64,000 nucleotides of DNA. Source: Kiritimatiellia bacterium. GTDB taxonomy: Bacteria > Verrucomicrobiota > Kiritimatiellia > CAIVKH01. This document shows, piece by piece, positions 1 to 64,000 of this stretch (position 1 is the first letter of the stretch; each line of letters begins with the position of its first letter). The notes beneath the pieces are model-generated. The model was not told where the DNA came from. It saw only the letters and a list, made by a program, of their open reading frames with translations, and ran no database searches. The translations under genes and the position numbers were made by a program. The stretch lies in contig JANWZO010000001.1 in NCBI GenBank assembly GCA_025054615.1, positions 1 through 64,000 of the forward strand. Reading direction: 5' to 3'.

Positions 1-284
1 TGCGCGTTCGTCAACGCCGCGTCCAAATTGCCGACGACCCCGTGCTGCCCGATCACCGTCGCATAGAGCCCGTCCACCGCCGTCGCAAAATTCGTGCTCT
101 GGTGCAGCAGCGTTCCCCCCGTCGGCGCATCATACATCCGGAACACCAAACTCACCGGCCCGCTGTACAGGTTCGTCCCCTGCACCAGCCGACCCTGATA
201 GTGAATCATCCCCGGCGCATCCGCCTGCGCCAAGTCGGCTACGGCCCCGATCAACAGCATCGCGAACAGCCAACCGCGTTTCAT
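1..284 (-). CDS. Secreted protein of unknown function, C-terminus cut by window edge
   Basis: This reading frame runs off the left end of the window, so only about 94 N-terminal residues are visible. It starts MKRGWLFAMLLIGAVADLAQA, a typical signal peptide, and the mature part begins with GMIHYQGRLVQG. That YQGRL stretch is frequent at the start of secreted, often tail-fibre-like proteins of Verrucomicrobiota and Kiritimatiellota (family knowledge). The ATG at 284 is preceded by a strong GGAGGAGG ribosome site. An in-frame ATG also exists at 341, overlapping the stop of the upstream coiled-coil remnant, but it has a weaker site and would put 19 residues in front of the signal peptide. Function is unknown. 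Confidence 0.75.
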   Translation of the reverse strand, partial: MKRGWLFAMLLIGAVADLAQADAPGMIHYQGRLVQGTNLYSGPVSLVFRMYDAPTGGTLLHQSTNFATAVDGLYATVIGQHGVVGNLDAALTNA

Positions 285-340
285 CGCGGCTTCCCTCCTC
301 CTTATGGTCGTAAAGTACATGCGCGTTTTCTCCTTGCCCA

Positions 341-505
341 TCACTGTGAAATCACCCTCCTCAGCGTTCCAATCTCTTTGCGAAGCGCCCGGATCTCGTT
401 CCAGAGTTGAGCATTCTCTTCTTCAAACCGCTCACTGTGTTTCGCAAGCGCTGGGACGGAGGCGAAGAGGACCTCCTCCGGCCCAATGGCTGACCCCCCC
501 TGCGG
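341..505 (-). pseudogene. 3' remnant of a gene ending in a coiled coil
   Basis: Between in-frame stops there is an open stretch of 54 codons with no usable start codon. Its end reads as a convincing coiled coil (RFEEENAQLWNEIRALRKEI followed by GTLRRVISQ and TGA). Such heptad C-termini close many tail-fibre or S74-type proteins in this bacterial group. The stretch is on the same strand as the secreted gene 57 nt downstream, and its TGA overlaps a potential ATG of that frame. I read it as the end of a gene whose front was deleted. A short unrelated coiled-coil peptide cannot be ruled out. Confidence 0.5.
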
Positions 506-543
506 TTACTCTTCGGTACCACTAAGTCCAGTTTGTTTGTCCC

Positions 544-580
544 ATCCTAATATACGCTTCCAACGTATTCCAGGTAGGAT
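544..580. repeat. Nested inverted repeat
   Basis: Outer arms ATCCTA (544-549) and TAGGAT (575-580) enclose inner arms ATACG (552-556) and CGTAT (564-568). The element lies in gene-free DNA upstream of the minus-strand remnant and before the decayed transposase. There is no adjacent T-run, so it does not look like an intrinsic terminator. It could be an operator or debris of a mobile element; I cannot tell which. Confidence 0.3.
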
Positions 581-734
581 TATTTCTTAAGCTCGCTGTT
601 TCCGCAATCCAGTTCTTTTTGGCTTGTCATAACTCTTAGCAAACATCCACTGGCAAACGCGATAGAAATGATCCGATGTCCGAGGAAGGAGTACTGCTGT
701 GATGGCAGAACTACCAAGGAATCAGAATGAGTGA

Positions 735-995
735 ACGAGGCTGAAGGTTACTGAGGCAGAGAAAAACCTCTCGTGCGTGGGTGATGTGGCGCGAAAACCG
801 GGACTTAGCGTTCGCGGCGCCAAACGGGTTTGGCAGAAATTTCGGATTGAGGGGGATGCGGTGTCGGTCCACCGAAGTCGCGGCCGACAAATAAATCGGC
901 AGGAGGCGACGATCCGTGAAGGGGCGCTTGAGAGGTATGCCAAACGTTACGCGGGGTTTTGGGCGACAGCTTCGGCTTCAGCGTCGTCGTTTTGA
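735..995 (+). pseudogene. Decayed ISNCY-like transposase, N-terminal fragment
   Basis: The open frame after a TGA at 732-734 reads TRLKVTEAEKNLSCVGDVAR, then KPGLSVRGAKRVWQKFRIEG, then HRSRGR and ERYAKRYAGF. This matches, in order, the helix-turn-helix start of ISNCY-type transposases, which have a GEAARRLGLSVRQVKR-like core, HRSRGRPSNR and ALERY..RYAGFGPT. The fragment stops at 995, where the catalytic DDE part should begin, and nothing downstream resumes it. Several normally constant residues are changed. No terminal inverted repeats were recognised. It is a relic rather than an active element. Confidence 0.6.
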
Positions 996-1259
996 GTCGT
1001 AGCCGCGCTCGATGAGCCCGGAGAATTACTGGTGACCTGTAGAGGGGCGCGGTGAGCCCGGAATCTTTCCGGCGCCAACGACGCCGGCGGAAGGAAATTC
1101 TGCGGGGCTTCAGCCATAGGACTGAGATTTAGACCTCTCATGCGGCCGCGACATCGGATAGATGGCGCAGCAGGCCCTTTTTTATGAATAGGTATTAACA
1201 GGAACTCATGTAATTCGTTTTTACTCGATTCGTCAGATGGAACATTTAATACTGATCTC
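996..1259. other. Gene-free stretch after the transposase remnant
   Basis: No credible gene was found. A perfect 6-bp stem (CCGGCG at 1069-1074, CGCCGG at 1082-1087, 7-nt loop) lies here without a T-run. The final 60 bases are AT-richer (around 1190-1259) and probably hold the promoter of the small gene starting at 1260, possibly a TTTAAT box just before it. The -35 is unclear. Confidence 0.35.
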
Positions 1260-1673
1260 ATGAGGAAGGGGAGTTCGATCAGACCGCTTCCATGCCCGAC
1301 GTGCGGCTATCAACCGGAGTCCTTTGCAGAAACGGTCTGCGCAAAATGCGACTCGCTACTCTACGAACCGACGCAGGGCGCTTACCTTCAGGTCGATATC
1401 GCTCACAAAGGTCAAACTAGAGAAGATGCAACACGGATCATTGAGAAGAGTCTTAACGAGGCCATCATAAAGCGGAAAAGCGCGATTCATTTTATCTGCG
1501 GTTACGGTAGCCAAACCGGGCACACATCGATCATTCGCAACCATGCCATAAACGTTCTAAAGCGCCTGGCGAGGACGTCGAACTATCAAATGATATGCCC
1601 GCCCGAGAATCCCGGTAAGATCATCCTCGTTCTCGAATCTCATCGGAAAACGGCGTCCTCTATTTGGCCGTGA
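1260..1673 (+). CDS. Small zinc-ribbon protein with Smr-like domain
   Basis: This 137-residue protein begins with a four-cysteine zinc ribbon (C12-P-T-C15 and C27-A-K-C30). Residues about 43-105 look like a Smr domain: VDIAHKGQTRED resembles the LDLHG-L-T..EA opening, then two predicted helices, then FICGYGSQTGH in place of the usual HGKG..., followed by a helix. Smr domains bind or cleave nucleic acids (MutS2, ribosome rescue factors), but the core histidine motif here is altered and activity is not assured. No clear ribosome site precedes the ATG. The 3' end overlaps the convergent secreted-protein gene by 14 nt. It is an isolated gene next to transposase debris, which hints at acquired DNA. 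Confidence 0.6.
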   Translation: MRKGSSIRPLPCPTCGYQPESFAETVCAKCDSLLYEPTQGAYLQVDIAHKGQTREDATRIIEKSLNEAIIKRKSAIHFICGYGSQTGHTSIIRNHAINVLKRLARTSNYQMICPPENPGKIILVLESHRKTASSIWP

Positions 1674-2088
1674 TTGTCACGATCAAACGGCCCTCGCCGT
1701 GGGGAACGCCACCGAGGATGGCCGGGCGCCCGCGCTGAAGCTTGATGGACGTACTTAGGAGGCGCCGGTCATCCCGGTACCAGATGACTTCCACGTGGCT
1801 GCCGCGGTCACGCCCGGCGCGAACGGAAAGCACGTGGCCCTCTCCGAGATCGATCGCGGCTTCGCCTGGTGTGTGGAGAATGACAGAACCCATGCCCAAC
1901 AGGCGGTACGTCTCAAATCGGAGAAGCGGGCGGAGGATGTAGTCCACGCGCTCGAGACGGCGATCCAGCGGGGCGGGTTCATTCGACGCCAGGATCCGCA
2001 TCGCCTCAATTTCTATGGTCCCGTTTGCCGAGACCGGCGCGGCAGCCAAACCGATCACCCACCCCATGAGCATGAGAAGCCGTTTCAT
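1660..2088 (-). CDS. Small secreted protein of the ECF sigma operon
   Basis: A 142-residue protein with a signal peptide (MKRLLMLMGWVIGLAAAPVSA, likely cut before NG). The mature part is compact and predicted mostly beta: RILAS near the start, then YRLLGMGSVILHTPGEAAI, VRAGRD and GRPAILGGVPHGEGRLIVTI. It resembles small secreted proteins of unknown function that I recall next to sigma factors in several phyla; this is memory, not a search. The start at 2088 is chosen because GGAGGGA sits 6 nt upstream and the ATG overlaps the stop of the preceding gene (ATGA). A longer frame from 2130 would hide the signal peptide. It is probably co-translated with the anti-sigma candidate and may be an envelope sensor or effector. 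Confidence 0.65.
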   Translation of the reverse strand: MKRLLMLMGWVIGLAAAPVSANGTIEIEAMRILASNEPAPLDRRLERVDYILRPLLRFETYRLLGMGSVILHTPGEAAIDLGEGHVLSVRAGRDRGSHVEVIWYRDDRRLLSTSIKLQRGRPAILGGVPHGEGRLIVTITAK

Positions 2089-2573
2089 GTCGGTCCCTCC
2101 GCAGGCGGACCTTCGGGCATTACAATCCAAATGACGACCGCGCCATTTTCGGAGTCTTCGTAAACCATGGCACTGCTTCCAGGCAATTCCGGTTCAACCC
2201 ATTCAACCACCGGCCCGGCGGCATGAGCGTGAAGCGGAGACATCGGGCGAAGACCGATCACGCCGAGCCCGACGACGAGAACAAGCGTGGCGGCAATGGC
2301 CGCCCAATTCCAGTGGGCTCGGATCCGCTCCGCCTCGCGGCGTTGGGCGCGCCTTAAACGGATCTCCCGAAGGACATCGATGCACATTGTTTCCGCTGGC
2401 GGCGTTGGAACCGGCTGCCGGCGCAGGAGGTCGCCCACGGTGTCCCAGGCACGAAGCGATGCTTCCACGTCAGCGGGTGGGGGTCCCTTGGCGTCGAGCC
2501 GTTCGGCCTCTCTCGGCTTCAGCTCTCCGTCGCGCCGCCGGCTCCAGGCTTTCAAGCATTTCTCCACGTTCAT
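2085..2573 (-). CDS. Putative membrane anti-sigma factor
   Basis: 162 residues: an N-terminal cytoplasmic part of about 85 residues with helical, charged sequence (KCLKAWSRRRDGELKPREAE), one membrane segment (WAAIAATLVLVVGLGVIGL, about 90-110) and a short external tail rich in proline and acid. Position directly after an ECF sigma gene with an ATGA overlap, and a one-pass topology, fit an anti-sigma factor that holds the sigma at the membrane. The HxxxCxxC zinc anti-sigma motif is absent, so the assignment rests on context and layout. The start at 2573 was chosen over the upstream frame at 2648 because it overlaps the sigma stop and gives the expected topology. Confidence 0.6.
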   Translation of the reverse strand: MNVEKCLKAWSRRRDGELKPREAERLDAKGPPPADVEASLRAWDTVGDLLRRQPVPTPPAETMCIDVLREIRLRRAQRREAERIRAHWNWAAIAATLVLVVGLGVIGLRPMSPLHAHAAGPVVEWVEPELPGSSAMVYEDSENGAVVIWIVMPEGPPAEGPT

Positions 2574-3184
2574 AGCAGGTCCTTCAAAAGGCGTTGCATT
2601 TCGCGGCGGGCGTAAAAAAGGCGCGACATGACAGTACCGGTACGGCATTTCATGACCTCGGCGATTTCGCGGTAGGAAAGACCTTCGACCTCCCGCAGAA
2701 TCAGGGCTGCCCGGTGTTCCGGCGTAAGCCGCTGGAGGGCAGCTTCAAATGCTTTCCAGATCTCGTCCCGCGAGACGCTCGCGTCGGGTCGTCCCGCATC
2801 CGGCGCCTGCCATTCCGCGGCCGGACTGGGCTCGCGCTCGGGTAGCTCGTCGAGGGAGACCTCCCGTCGGCGGGTCGATCGGCGAACCTCGTCAAGCACG
2901 GTGTTAACGGCGACGCGGTAAAGCCATGTAAAAAACCTGGATTCCCCCTTGTACGTGTGGAGGCGCTGCCAGGCCCGAACCCAAGCCTGTTGAGCCAGTT
3001 CTCGCGCCAATTCCGCGTCGTTGACCATGCGGTAAATTACTCCATAGACCCGGCTGTGAAATATTTGTACCAACTCGCCGAAAGCGCGGTCGTCGCCGGC
3101 CTTGGACCGGCGCACGAGGTCTTCGACGCCCGCTTCCGGCGAACTCTCCTCGAGGTTGGACGCCTCCGACTCAAGGTTATTCAT
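2570..3184 (-). CDS. RNA polymerase sigma factor, ECF (sigma-70 family)
   Basis: 204 residues with the two ECF regions. Region 2 (about 22-100) includes FGELVQIFHSRVYGVIYRMV and WVRAWQRLHTYKGESRFFTW. Region 4 (about 145-200) includes LTPEHRAALILREVEGLSYR followed by EIAEVMKCRTGTVMSRLFYA. A proline- and glutamate-rich linker joins them. Regions 1 and 3 are absent, as usual for the group. It directs core RNA polymerase to a small regulon, and the two downstream genes overlap it and each other, so the three form one translation unit. The N-terminal 20 residues are acidic and variable. The ATG at 3184 has a loose AAGGGGG about 11 nt upstream. Confidence 0.9.
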   Translation of the reverse strand: MNNLESEASNLEESSPEAGVEDLVRRSKAGDDRAFGELVQIFHSRVYGVIYRMVNDAELARELAQQAWVRAWQRLHTYKGESRFFTWLYRVAVNTVLDEVRRSTRRREVSLDELPEREPSPAAEWQAPDAGRPDASVSRDEIWKAFEAALQRLTPEHRAALILREVEGLSYREIAEVMKCRTGTVMSRLFYARREMQRLLKDLL

Positions 3185-3506
3185 TCCGACGCCAGCCCCC
3201 TTCGTCTTGGCGGGCTGAAAATCTGTTTACCCGCCTCCCAGGTACGCGACGCCTGCGAGATGGACACCCGCTGCGCGTCATCGTTGCAAATCGGGCTTCG
3301 CTACTCAACTTGGGAAAGTTACGTCGCGTAGGGGCCAAGGTCATATTACCTCGGTTCATAAGCCTGCCGAGGGTCTTGAAGTCGGAGCGAGAATCTGGTG
3401 GATGAACCTTGGTCGTATTTCTGATCCTCCGCCGATACGAAGCGCGTCCGCATAGTTTGGTAACTGACCTATTCTCTCAGCGCCTCGCGCAGCCTCTTCG
3501 TACTAA
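3185..3506. other. Intergenic region upstream of the ECF sigma operon
   Basis: This 322-nt gap separates the sigma operon from the end of the upstream aspS-phosphoesterase gene set, all on the minus strand. No gene is visible. On the minus strand there is a short dyad AACTT-TCCC-AAGTT and a possible TTGAGT-N17-AACGAT promoter ahead of the sigma gene, both weak. An ECF-type GGAAC box could not be fixed with confidence. Confidence 0.3.
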
Positions 3507-8611: not shown

Positions 8612-10405
8612 TTATTTCCGAGGGGAATCCGATTCTTCCTCCGGCAGGTCAAGCTGAATCCAAACTTCCCGCAGTTGTCGCGCTTCCACCCGGTCCGGCG
8701 CGTTCATCATCAGGTCGACAGCCTTCTGGGTCTTCGGGAAAGCAATCACGTCGCGGATGCTGTCCGCCCCAGCCATCAACATCACGAACCGGTCAAGCCC
8801 GAGCGCAATGCCTCCGTGCGGCGGAGCCCCGTATTTGAAAGCATCGATCATGTGGCCAAACATCATGCGAATTTTTTCCTCAGGCAGACCCAAGGCACGG
8901 AATGCGCGCGCCTGTAGATCCGAATCGTGAATTCGGATGCTGCCCCCGCCAAGTTCAATGCCGTTGAGGATAATGTCGTACGCAAGAGCGCGCGCACGGA
9001 GCGGGTCGGTTTCGATCAGCGCCGCGTCATCGGGGTGAGGTGCCGTAAACGGGTGGTTGACCGACGTGATCCCCCCTTCCGCGCTCCGCTCAAAAAGCGG
9101 GAAGTCGGTCACCCATGTGAACCGGAACACGCCGGTGGGTATCGCTCCCGCCTCCGCGCCGGCCAGCAGGCGGATGCGGCCCAGAGCGATATTCGCAATA
9201 TCCGGCTTGTCGGCTGCGAAGAGCACAAGGTCACCGGGGCGCATATCCAGCCGATCTCGGAGCAAGGCCTGTTCGGCTTCGCTGAAGAATTTGACAATGG
9301 GCGATTTCCAGGAACCGTCCGGCTGAACCCGGATGTAGGCGAGTCCGCCCAGCCCGGACTCTTTTGCCACCTGGGTCCAGTTGTCGATCGTCCCCTGCGA
9401 CACCGCGCCAAGCCCCTTCGCGTTGATGGCCTTGACCACACCCCCCTGCGCGAGCACCGACGCGAAGACCTTGAATTGCGTGCCCGCGAAGATGTCGCTC
9501 AGATCGGTCAGTAGCATCTGAAACCGCGTATCCGGCTTGTCCGAGCCGTAACGGTTCATCGCCTCCGAATAGGTCATACGCGGGAGGGGCAACGAGGGGC
9601 GCGGGTGTCCGGCCGCCTCCATGGCATCGGCGATTAGCCCGTCGATCAATGCGTAGATGTCCTCAGGAGTGATGAATGACATCTCAATGTCGACTTGCGT
9701 AAACTCCGGCTGGCGGTCCGCGCGCAGGTCCTCATCCCGAAAACACCGCGCGATCTGAAAGTATCTGTCCAGCCCAGCAACCATGCATAACTGCTTGTAC
9801 TGCTGGGGCGATTGCGGCAGGGCATAGAAGCAGCCTGGATTCACGCGGCTCGGCACCAGATAGTCGCGCGCGCCCTCGGGCGTGCTCTTCGTGAGAATCG
9901 GTGTTTCGATCTCGATGAAGCCTTTCCCGTCCAAATATCGGCGGATGGCCTGCGTGATCCGGTGGCGCAGAACCAGGTTTCGCTGCATCGACTCGCGCCG
10001 CAGATCCAGATAGCGATACGTCAGCCGCAATTCCTCCGCCACCCTGACGGCCTTCGCCTCCTCCAGCGGAAAGGGGGGCGGCTGGCTGCGGTTCAGCAAT
10101 TCGATGGCCGTGCCTCGCACTTCGATCTCCCCCGTCGCCAGCCTTGGGTTGACCATGTCCGCCGGCCGCGGCTGCACAACGCCGGTCACGCGCAGGACGT
10201 ACTCGCCTCGTGCGGATTGCGCCGCATCCCACGCCGACTGGGAATCGCGCGGGTCAAACGTAACCTGTGTCACCCCGTAGCGGTCGCGCAAATCGATGAA
10301 GATGAGACCGCCGTGGTCCCGCACTGTATCGGCCCAGCCGCACAACGTAACCGTCTGGCCCGCGTGTTGCCGGCGCAATTCTCCGCAGGTATGCGTTCGC
10401 ATCAT
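8612..10405 (-). CDS. aspS: Aspartate--tRNA ligase
   Basis: 597 residues, the bacterial class II type with an internal GAD insertion. The N-terminal anticodon-binding OB fold is seen in CGWADTVRDHGGLIFIDLRD, motif 2 around CFRDEDLRADRQPEFTQ, and motif 3 in GIALGLDRFVMLMAG. It charges tRNA-Asp with aspartate in the cytoplasm. Start choice: the frame has ATGs at 10432, 10405 and 10402. GGAG lies 11 nt before the 10405 codon, while the first has no ribosome site, so 10405 is used. A promoter with an overlapping perfect dyad lies about 110-160 nt upstream. It is the first gene of the minus-strand set that continues to 3507. Confidence 0.95.
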   Translation of the reverse strand: MMRTHTCGELRRQHAGQTVTLCGWADTVRDHGGLIFIDLRDRYGVTQVTFDPRDSQSAWDAAQSARGEYVLRVTGVVQPRPADMVNPRLATGEIEVRGTAIELLNRSQPPPFPLEEAKAVRVAEELRLTYRYLDLRRESMQRNLVLRHRITQAIRRYLDGKGFIEIETPILTKSTPEGARDYLVPSRVNPGCFYALPQSPQQYKQLCMVAGLDRYFQIARCFRDEDLRADRQPEFTQVDIEMSFITPEDIYALIDGLIADAMEAAGHPRPSLPLPRMTYSEAMNRYGSDKPDTRFQMLLTDLSDIFAGTQFKVFASVLAQGGVVKAINAKGLGAVSQGTIDNWTQVAKESGLGGLAYIRVQPDGSWKSPIVKFFSEAEQALLRDRLDMRPGDLVLFAADKPDIANIALGRIRLLAGAEAGAIPTGVFRFTWVTDFPLFERSAEGGITSVNHPFTAPHPDDAALIETDPLRARALAYDIILNGIELGGGSIRIHDSDLQARAFRALGLPEEKIRMMFGHMIDAFKYGAPPHGGIALGLDRFVMLMAGADSIRDVIAFPKTQKAVDLMMNAPDRVEARQLREVWIQLDLPEEESDSPRK

Positions 10406-10457
10406 GGTCTGTGACGCTCCAAAAAGTTCCATTCTCTGTAAAAATTTTTTCAGCAGC

Positions 10458-10472
10458 TTCCATGCTTTGGAA
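10458..10472. repeat. TTCCA-N5-TGGAA dyad in the aspS leader
   Basis: The 15-nt TTCCATGCTTTGGAA is a five-base dyad (TTCCA / TGGAA) that lies between the predicted aspS transcription start and the aspS start codon. It resembles the TTCCAT-NNN-ATGGAA units at 63536-63600. It may be a protein-binding or processing site, or one member of a dispersed repeat. Confidence 0.4.

Positions 10473-61376: not shown

Positions 61377-61380
<4 letters not shown>
60175..61380 (+). CDS. Membrane protein of unknown function
   Basis: 401 residues. Two adjacent membrane helices lie near the start (about 15-35 VVRILLLVASVVGAILIIEI and about 50-68 VAFYGFIAVLTVGLVYLAIR). The rest is mainly helical and soluble, with HLLKRVADHPNLPPAQSRDA, YHQITLICGLVDCYLPRATL, VDVWRVLTGGDYFRIGQRLF and WLTWTTAQVVMHRCRTLGRW, and a charged tail. 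The layout faintly recalls DUF697/YcjF proteins, which pair with small GTPases, but no such GTPase is here, so I do not assign it. The start at 60175 is 10 nt after recO. It overlaps the debranching enzyme gene by ATGA. Confidence 0.75.
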
Positions 61381-63485
<2,105 letters not shown>

Positions 63486-63535: not shown

Positions 63536-63600
63536 TTTCCATCGTATGGAAAAATGTTGTCTCGCGCCTTCCATGCCATGGAATTTCCATGGCATGGAAA
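63536..63600. repeat. Cluster of three TTTCCAT-NNN-ATGGAAA dyads
   Basis: Three short palindromes: TTTCCAT-CGT-ATGGAAA (63536-63552), TTCCAT-GCC-ATGGAA (63569-63583) and TTTCCAT-GGC-ATGGAAA (63584-63600). Their centres are 32 and 16 nt apart, so all sit on a 16-nt spacing with one position unoccupied. The second and third are exact reverse complements of each other. They lie between glgX and the next gene. A related TTCCA-N5-TGGAA is in the aspS leader. They could be protein-binding sites, a dispersed repeat, or a termination region (TTTT follows the third). Confidence 0.7.
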
Positions 63601-63707: not shown

Positions 63708-64000
63708 ATGATGATGGATCCAATTTACTGGCTGTTTGCCCTGCCGGGGCTCGTACTTGGCCTCTTGGCCGCCGCCCTGACAAGGGGGACTTTCTCCAAG
63801 TATGCCCAGGTCGGGGCGCGCTCGGGGTTGACCGGCGCGGAGGCGGCGCGCCAGATGCTCGAATCCCAGGGAATTTACGACGTCGAAATCCACGAAACCG
63901 AGGGATTCCTCTCCGACCATTATGACCCGCGAACCCACTCGCTCCACCTGTCGCCGGACGTTTACCATGGCCGTTCGCTCTCGGCGATCGGCGTGGCGTG
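63708..64000 (+). CDS. Neutral zinc metallopeptidase, YugP family, cut by window edge
   Basis: Only about 97 N-terminal residues are present. After MMMDPIYWLFALPGLVLGLL, a membrane segment, comes FSKYAQVGARSGLTGAEAAR QMLESQGIYDVEI and FLSDHYDPRTHSLHLSPDVY, the pattern of the membrane zinc peptidases of the YugP type (PF04298). The HExxH motif lies beyond the edge. GAGGAG stands 9 nt before the ATG. The gene has its own leader of about 220 nt after glgX, which includes the dyad cluster. Confidence 0.85.
   Translation, partial: MMMDPIYWLFALPGLVLGLLAAALTRGTFSKYAQVGARSGLTGAEAARQMLESQGIYDVEIHETEGFLSDHYDPRTHSLHLSPDVYHGRSLSAIGVA

Follow-up and report, generated by a model that had tools for sequence, protein, structure and literature searches.

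Phased palindrome arrays form a dispersed intergenic repeat family of the class Kiritimatiellae, with a putative protein-binding site as their unit

The first 64,000 nucleotides of contig JANWZO010000001.1 from a Kiritimatiellia bacterium (the window; its genome is labelled G000, and relatives carry the other G-numbers) contain a cluster of palindromes at 63536–63600, raising the question of whether its regular spacing reflects binding of a regulator, a dispersed repeat family or a local curiosity. The cluster holds three dyads, none of them assigned to a strand, and lies in a 222-bp gap flanked by a glgX-like amylase gene (61377–63485) on one side and a zinc metallopeptidase gene beginning at 63708 on the other. 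Dyad 1, TTCCATCGTATGGAA (63537–63551), and dyad 2, TTCCATGCCATGGAA (63569–63583), are perfect dyads 32 bp apart, and the 17-bp spacer that separates them (63552–63568, likewise unstranded) contains a vacant grid position. Dyad 3, TTCCATGGCATGGAA (63585–63599), follows dyad 2 by 16 bp and is its exact reverse complement. This agrees with the first-pass annotation, which had described three dyads on a 16-nt grid with one vacancy, two of them mirroring each other. Within the array, only dyads 1 and 3 extend to the 17-mer TTTCCATNNNATGGAAA. Within the window, matches to the dyad at one mismatch or fewer number 5, compared to 0.13 in shuffled sequences, which is far above chance. The same annotation had linked such units, when translated, to FHTMET- or FPWHGK-like peptides in spurious proteins of this bacterial group; overlapping open reading frames here do read ...AFHAMEFPWHGN... 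and ...SMPWKFHGME..., and an array within plsY encodes ...FPYLGSRWGADFHSME...; translated array stretches would account for spurious peptides of the FHxME and FPWHGx kinds.

A relative of these dyads had been noted in the leader of aspS (8612–10378, minus strand). This degenerate dyad, TTCCATGCTTTGGAA (10458–10472), does lie upstream of aspS, and a second degenerate dyad missing from the earlier description, TTCCATTCTCTGTAA (10427–10441; neither is stranded), lies 31 bp from it. This partner makes the aspS leader an array of two dyads that shares the grid of the window array. Close dyad pairs in the window (spacings of 16, 31, 32 and 48 bp) are found only at these two places.

Throughout the 2.48-Mb G000 genome, the pattern TTCCATNNNATGGAA occurs 150 times and its reversed control 0 times, so the count is not at the chance level that would have left the window array a local curiosity. 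The central base is C or G in 142 of the 150 exact dyads. Clusters were read on contigs 1–16, where 47 of them hold 108 of the 150 exact dyads, the remainder being counted only; the window array is thus one of at least 47 arrays in this genome, which are mostly intergenic. Each array consists of two or more 15-bp dyads of the form TTnCA-N5-TGnAA with a C/G centre (2–8 copies per array), and the median distance between clusters within a contig is 26.6 kb. Among the 108 exact dyads, all 61 neighbour spacings below 1 kb fall on the grid, i.e., 16 bp (4), 17 bp (2), 31 bp (27) and 32 bp (28). Clusters with a single exact dyad follow the same rule, since a degenerate on-grid partner was found in 16/16 of them and a partner at off-grid control distances in 0/16. 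In turns of B-DNA, 31.5 bp corresponds to 3 and 16 bp to 1.5. The half-site variants TTACAG and TTCCAG are likewise present, and half-sites vary independently in this genome (109 symmetric dyads observed vs. 109.4 expected).

Mapped against homemade gene calls, by which the window is 91% coding, 43 of the 47 G000 clusters lie wholly between genes, three reach 11–15 bp into the start of a called gene, and one lies inside plsY. The gaps that hold them are tandem (34), convergent (7) and divergent (6), and they are flanked by varied housekeeping genes that share no pathway. When the sampled genomes were pooled, the ratio of convergent to divergent gaps was 25:26 with arrays vs. 36:91 without arrays (p = 0.014). 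Those arrays that occupy tandem gaps lie slightly nearer the end of the upstream gene (medians 43 vs. 61 bp, p = 0.005); some arrays lie 10–50 bp upstream of start codons. The plsY array is in frame (locus L029, contig 3, 4400–9400, at 2475–2522) and falls in a loop that exceeds its counterpart in the A. aeolicus enzyme structure by about 7 residues.

The first-pass annotation had alternatively proposed a dispersed repeat family typical of this lineage, and the distribution bears this out. The relaxed pattern TTCCANNNNNTGGAA reaches at least 40 copies in 55 of 146 genomes of the class (range 40 to 3209; in G001, 3209 copies vs. 6 for the control), and at most 30 copies in 131 genomes from other classes of the phylum. 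The exact TTCCAT pattern is patchy among relatives, and arrays of other dyads, on the same grid as in G000, were found in related genomes (TTCCATGCTCTGTAA, TTACAGCCGCTGGAA and TTCCAANNNTTGGAA). The dyad is TTCCATGCTCTGTAA in G006 and TTACAGCCGCTGGAA in G012, both in 31-bp steps, while the TTCCAA type is represented by TTCCAAGSGTTGGAA in G004 and G007 and by TTCCAATSATTGGAA in G001. Samples of G010, G016, G018 and G019 contained no phased dyads, so the absence of arrays there looks real. The genomes are mostly fragmented MAGs. In a public genome collection, the phased-pair matches listed came from Kiritimatiellae, unclassified MAGs, one "Lentisphaerae" MAG and one "Neomarinimicrobiota" MAG. The coordinates of the "Lentisphaerae"-titled MAG match G013 and those of the "Neomarinimicrobiota"-titled one match G012, and both genomes are placed in the class of the window. 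The repeat family is restricted to the class Kiritimatiellae, and each species has its own dyad version. Because the public-collection loci were preselected by the 31/32-bp pattern, the claims about spacing rest on G000, G006, G012, G001 and G013; the last four were fetched without a spacing filter (the G001 and G013 stretches were partly chosen for dyads or genes of interest), and the 31/32 phasing recurs in all of them.

The arrays also occupy corresponding places in different genomes. G000 and G006 belong to different genera of one family, and an orthologue beside a G006 array was found for 13/21 array-flanking G000 genes vs. 8/37 other genes (Fisher p = 0.003), both rates being inflated by the choice of the fetched G006 loci for their arrays. 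In 13/13 cases the array is on the same side of the gene, despite the differing dyads. In G000, G006, G004, G007 and G001, an array built from that genome's own dyad occupies the gap between hisB and hisH or the stretch immediately following hisB, and in G002 and G005, where hisH overlaps hisB, there is no array. Upstream of aspS, G000 and G001 both carry an array with differing dyads (TTCCAAT-type in G001), and arrays lie upstream of both aspS and purQ in different genera. The unit length of 31/32 bp is kept across species while the spacer sequence differs, and spacers are partly alike between the arrays of one species. The latter suggests that whole units are also copied, which explains part of the regularity.

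Judged from sequence, the arrays are probably a Kiritimatiellae-specific, REP-like dispersed intergenic repeat whose unit is a helically phased, putative protein-binding site, a reading to which we give slightly better than even credence. The exact spacing of 1.5 and 3 turns, kept despite species-specific dyads, suggests landing pads for a putative DNA-binding protein. Each dyad would bind one dimer of this protein, and dimers on the same face of the helix might assemble into an oligomer, wrapping or bridging the DNA. On this view, the arrays would not be the operators of one regulon but dispersed sites with an architectural (nucleoid-associated) or insulator-like role. They could multiply and lengthen as the 31/32-bp unit is copied and duplicated in tandem, with the dyad version drifting together genome-wide. 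However, genomes of a single genus differ widely in copy number (7 to 2297 in g45; 4 to 61 in g9), as in mobile repeats, the partial likeness of spacers lets copying explain some of the spacing, and the only protein tested, a class-wide Lrp, occurs equally, and in similar form, in genomes without arrays.

A selfish or neutral REP-like repeat is the strongest rival, although we consider it rather unlikely. It would be a mobile 31/32-bp unit, duplicated in tandem, with no bound protein and with a spacing that is simply inherited unit length. REP and BIME elements are GTAG- and CGTC-tagged extragenic palindromes with a reported preference for the 3′ ends of genes (PMC3733652). Like them, the arrays are short intergenic palindromes of high copy number (hundreds to thousands), clustered, species-specific and patchy between relatives; their copy number varies more than 100-fold within a genus, and their slight preference for gene 3′ ends, seen in both the tandem and the convergent gaps above, resembles that of REPs (PMC3733652). 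The likeness of spacers within a species and the in-frame plsY array also favour a neutral repeat. However, duplication of one unit does not explain 16/17-bp half-units and mixed 31/32-bp steps in one array, nor why unit length is kept while unit sequence is turned over between families. Lone dyads are absent from the clusters read, as the 16 of 16 on-grid partners indicate. The G000 arrays share neither flanks nor a larger element, and a dedicated transposase is lacking: of Y1_Tnp (RAYT), G000 has a single weak copy and three array-rich genomes have none.

Of the kinds described so far, REP elements come closest, and their tag and transposase association were both tested for here and not found. 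A GTAG tag lies within 10 bp of 0/108 dyads and CGTC of 9/108; the Y1_Tnp genes of G006 lie several kb from dyads, among the contigs and dyads listed; and the correlation between RAYT genes and arrays is weak (Spearman rho 0.29, p = 0.03). A conserved stem-loop is also lacking, since the dominant G006 dyad is unfolded. In contrast to REPs, which have a tag and a RAYT association, the arrays have a fixed spacing of 1.5/3 turns and, in some species, an unconserved stem. A RAYT-driven REP was therefore rejected on the missing tag, the missing RAYT adjacency and the weak correlation, and a larger mobile element because 46 G000 arrays have no 400-bp flanks in common. CRISPR repeats, i.e., identical direct repeats of about 21–48 bp with unique spacers, differ from these 15-bp dyads in 2–8 copies with partly similar spacers.

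The arrays could also be operators through which one classical transcription factor controls a regulon, which appears improbable. The dyad architecture and cooperative spacing are as expected of operators, as are the arrays just upstream of start codons, including those of aspS and purQ in different genera. However, promoterless convergent gaps hold arrays as often as divergent ones (25 vs. 26), the neighbouring genes have no function in common, 3209 dyads are present in G001, and no transcription factor gene stood out, by eye, among the small genes downstream of the G000 arrays; a regulon operator was rejected on the first two grounds. The cooperative binding of a regulator that the first-pass annotation had suggested is accordingly retained in one part only: the regular spacing holds genome-wide and across families and fits cooperative protein binding, but a classical regulator is unsupported because the array neighbours form no coherent regulon and the regulator is only putative.

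The candidate considered for the binding protein was of the Lrp/AsnC family, whose sites are clustered 13–17-bp imperfect dyads two or three helical turns apart, and for which DNA wrapping by dimers or octamers has been described (PMC2995911). The Kiritimatiellae arrays show the same architecture as the Ss-LrpB and Ptr2 operators, i.e., clustered imperfect inverted repeats phased by helical turns, but those operators serve few promoters (PMC2995911), compared to tens to thousands of arrays here. A conserved class Lrp is present in 53 of 58 relatives, including all 28 array-rich genomes; the five genomes without it are all array-poor (p = 0.05). However, most array-free genomes have a similar Lrp, its helix-turn-helix region shows no variation in step with the dyad version, and no array lies at its own locus in G000. 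Lrp/AsnC was thus rejected as the likely binding protein, since the site architecture fits but the presence and sequence of the protein do not track the arrays; its absence from array-poor genomes only still leaves it a candidate.

Still less probable is an element acting at the RNA level, in which hairpins at the ends of genes terminate transcription in both directions or stabilise mRNA. The dyads of G000 and G004 can fold (−7.3 and −4.5 kcal/mol, respectively), the arrays have their slight 3′-end bias, and a weak strand bias relative to genes was seen in two species (12:2 and 3:13). However, the dominant G006 dyad has a folding energy of 0.0 kcal/mol, as a TTCCAT half is joined to a TTACAG half in 106/129 dyads, breaking two of six pairs, and G006 has no strand bias (16:19). 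Divergent gaps also hold arrays, no Rfam match covers them, and the window array received no terminator call; a GC-rich stem with a T run behind it, the mark of an intrinsic terminator where transcripts end, was not found. The RNA hairpin or terminator was rejected on the unpaired G006 dyad and the missing terminator and Rfam evidence. RNA hairpin, intrinsic terminator, RAYT-driven REP and single regulon all fit poorly. A phage-borne element was rejected because a scan of 2.9 million viral contigs returned only 12 matching stretches.

The phased protein-binding repeat may, more tentatively, belong to a chromosome-wide architectural system in which a putative protein oligomerises on the arrays, and in which this protein and its hundreds of sites change together between species (site dialects) while the arrays stay at the same gene borders; we regard this as possible, though well short of probable. 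Dispersed palindromic sites that are bound by dimers without the logic of a regulon are known for Noc, SlmA, MatP and parS. These sites resemble the arrays in being many and dispersed, but they are mostly single rather than phased. The DNA uptake sequence dialects of Neisseriaceae are species-specific versions of a high-copy motif, often in inverted pairs; they share this species specificity with the arrays, but we know of no phased arrays of DNA uptake sequences. For the motif sequences and for repeats in Kiritimatiellae, a library of open-licence papers yielded nothing relevant, which does not prove that the motif is undescribed. If correct, such a system would mean that a little-studied class has a hidden genome-wide set of sites, in up to thousands of copies per genome, whose strict helical spacing offers a direct handle on a putative chromosomal protein. 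The in-place change of sites between congeneric species would offer a clean natural example of how a DNA-binding protein changes in concert with its hundreds of targets.

Several minor observations were made in the related genomes. The MAG JAIPIQ01 (G012), titled Candidatus Neomarinimicrobiota, is placed in the class of the window and carries arrays, so its title looks wrong. Asymmetric dyads in G006, G012 and RGIG3636 are mostly co-oriented within their array (68 coherent, 4 mixed) and have a strand bias relative to genes in two of these three species. The RGIG3636 arrays (L099, L139, L143, L173, L174 and L178) often adjoin other dispersed repeats, with GAATCATCGACAGCATCCG... on one side and TTTTGGACCACTCCGCGTCG on the other. 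In G187, a genome of a different class within the phylum, 55 copies of the reversed control AAGGTNNNNNACCTT and 0 of the forward pattern were counted, perhaps representing another dispersed palindrome family. Other 6-3-6 dyads are also repeated, with the arm CAGGCG found 12 times in samples of G055 and CGCCCC 12 times in samples of G016 (L268–L272 and L278–L282).
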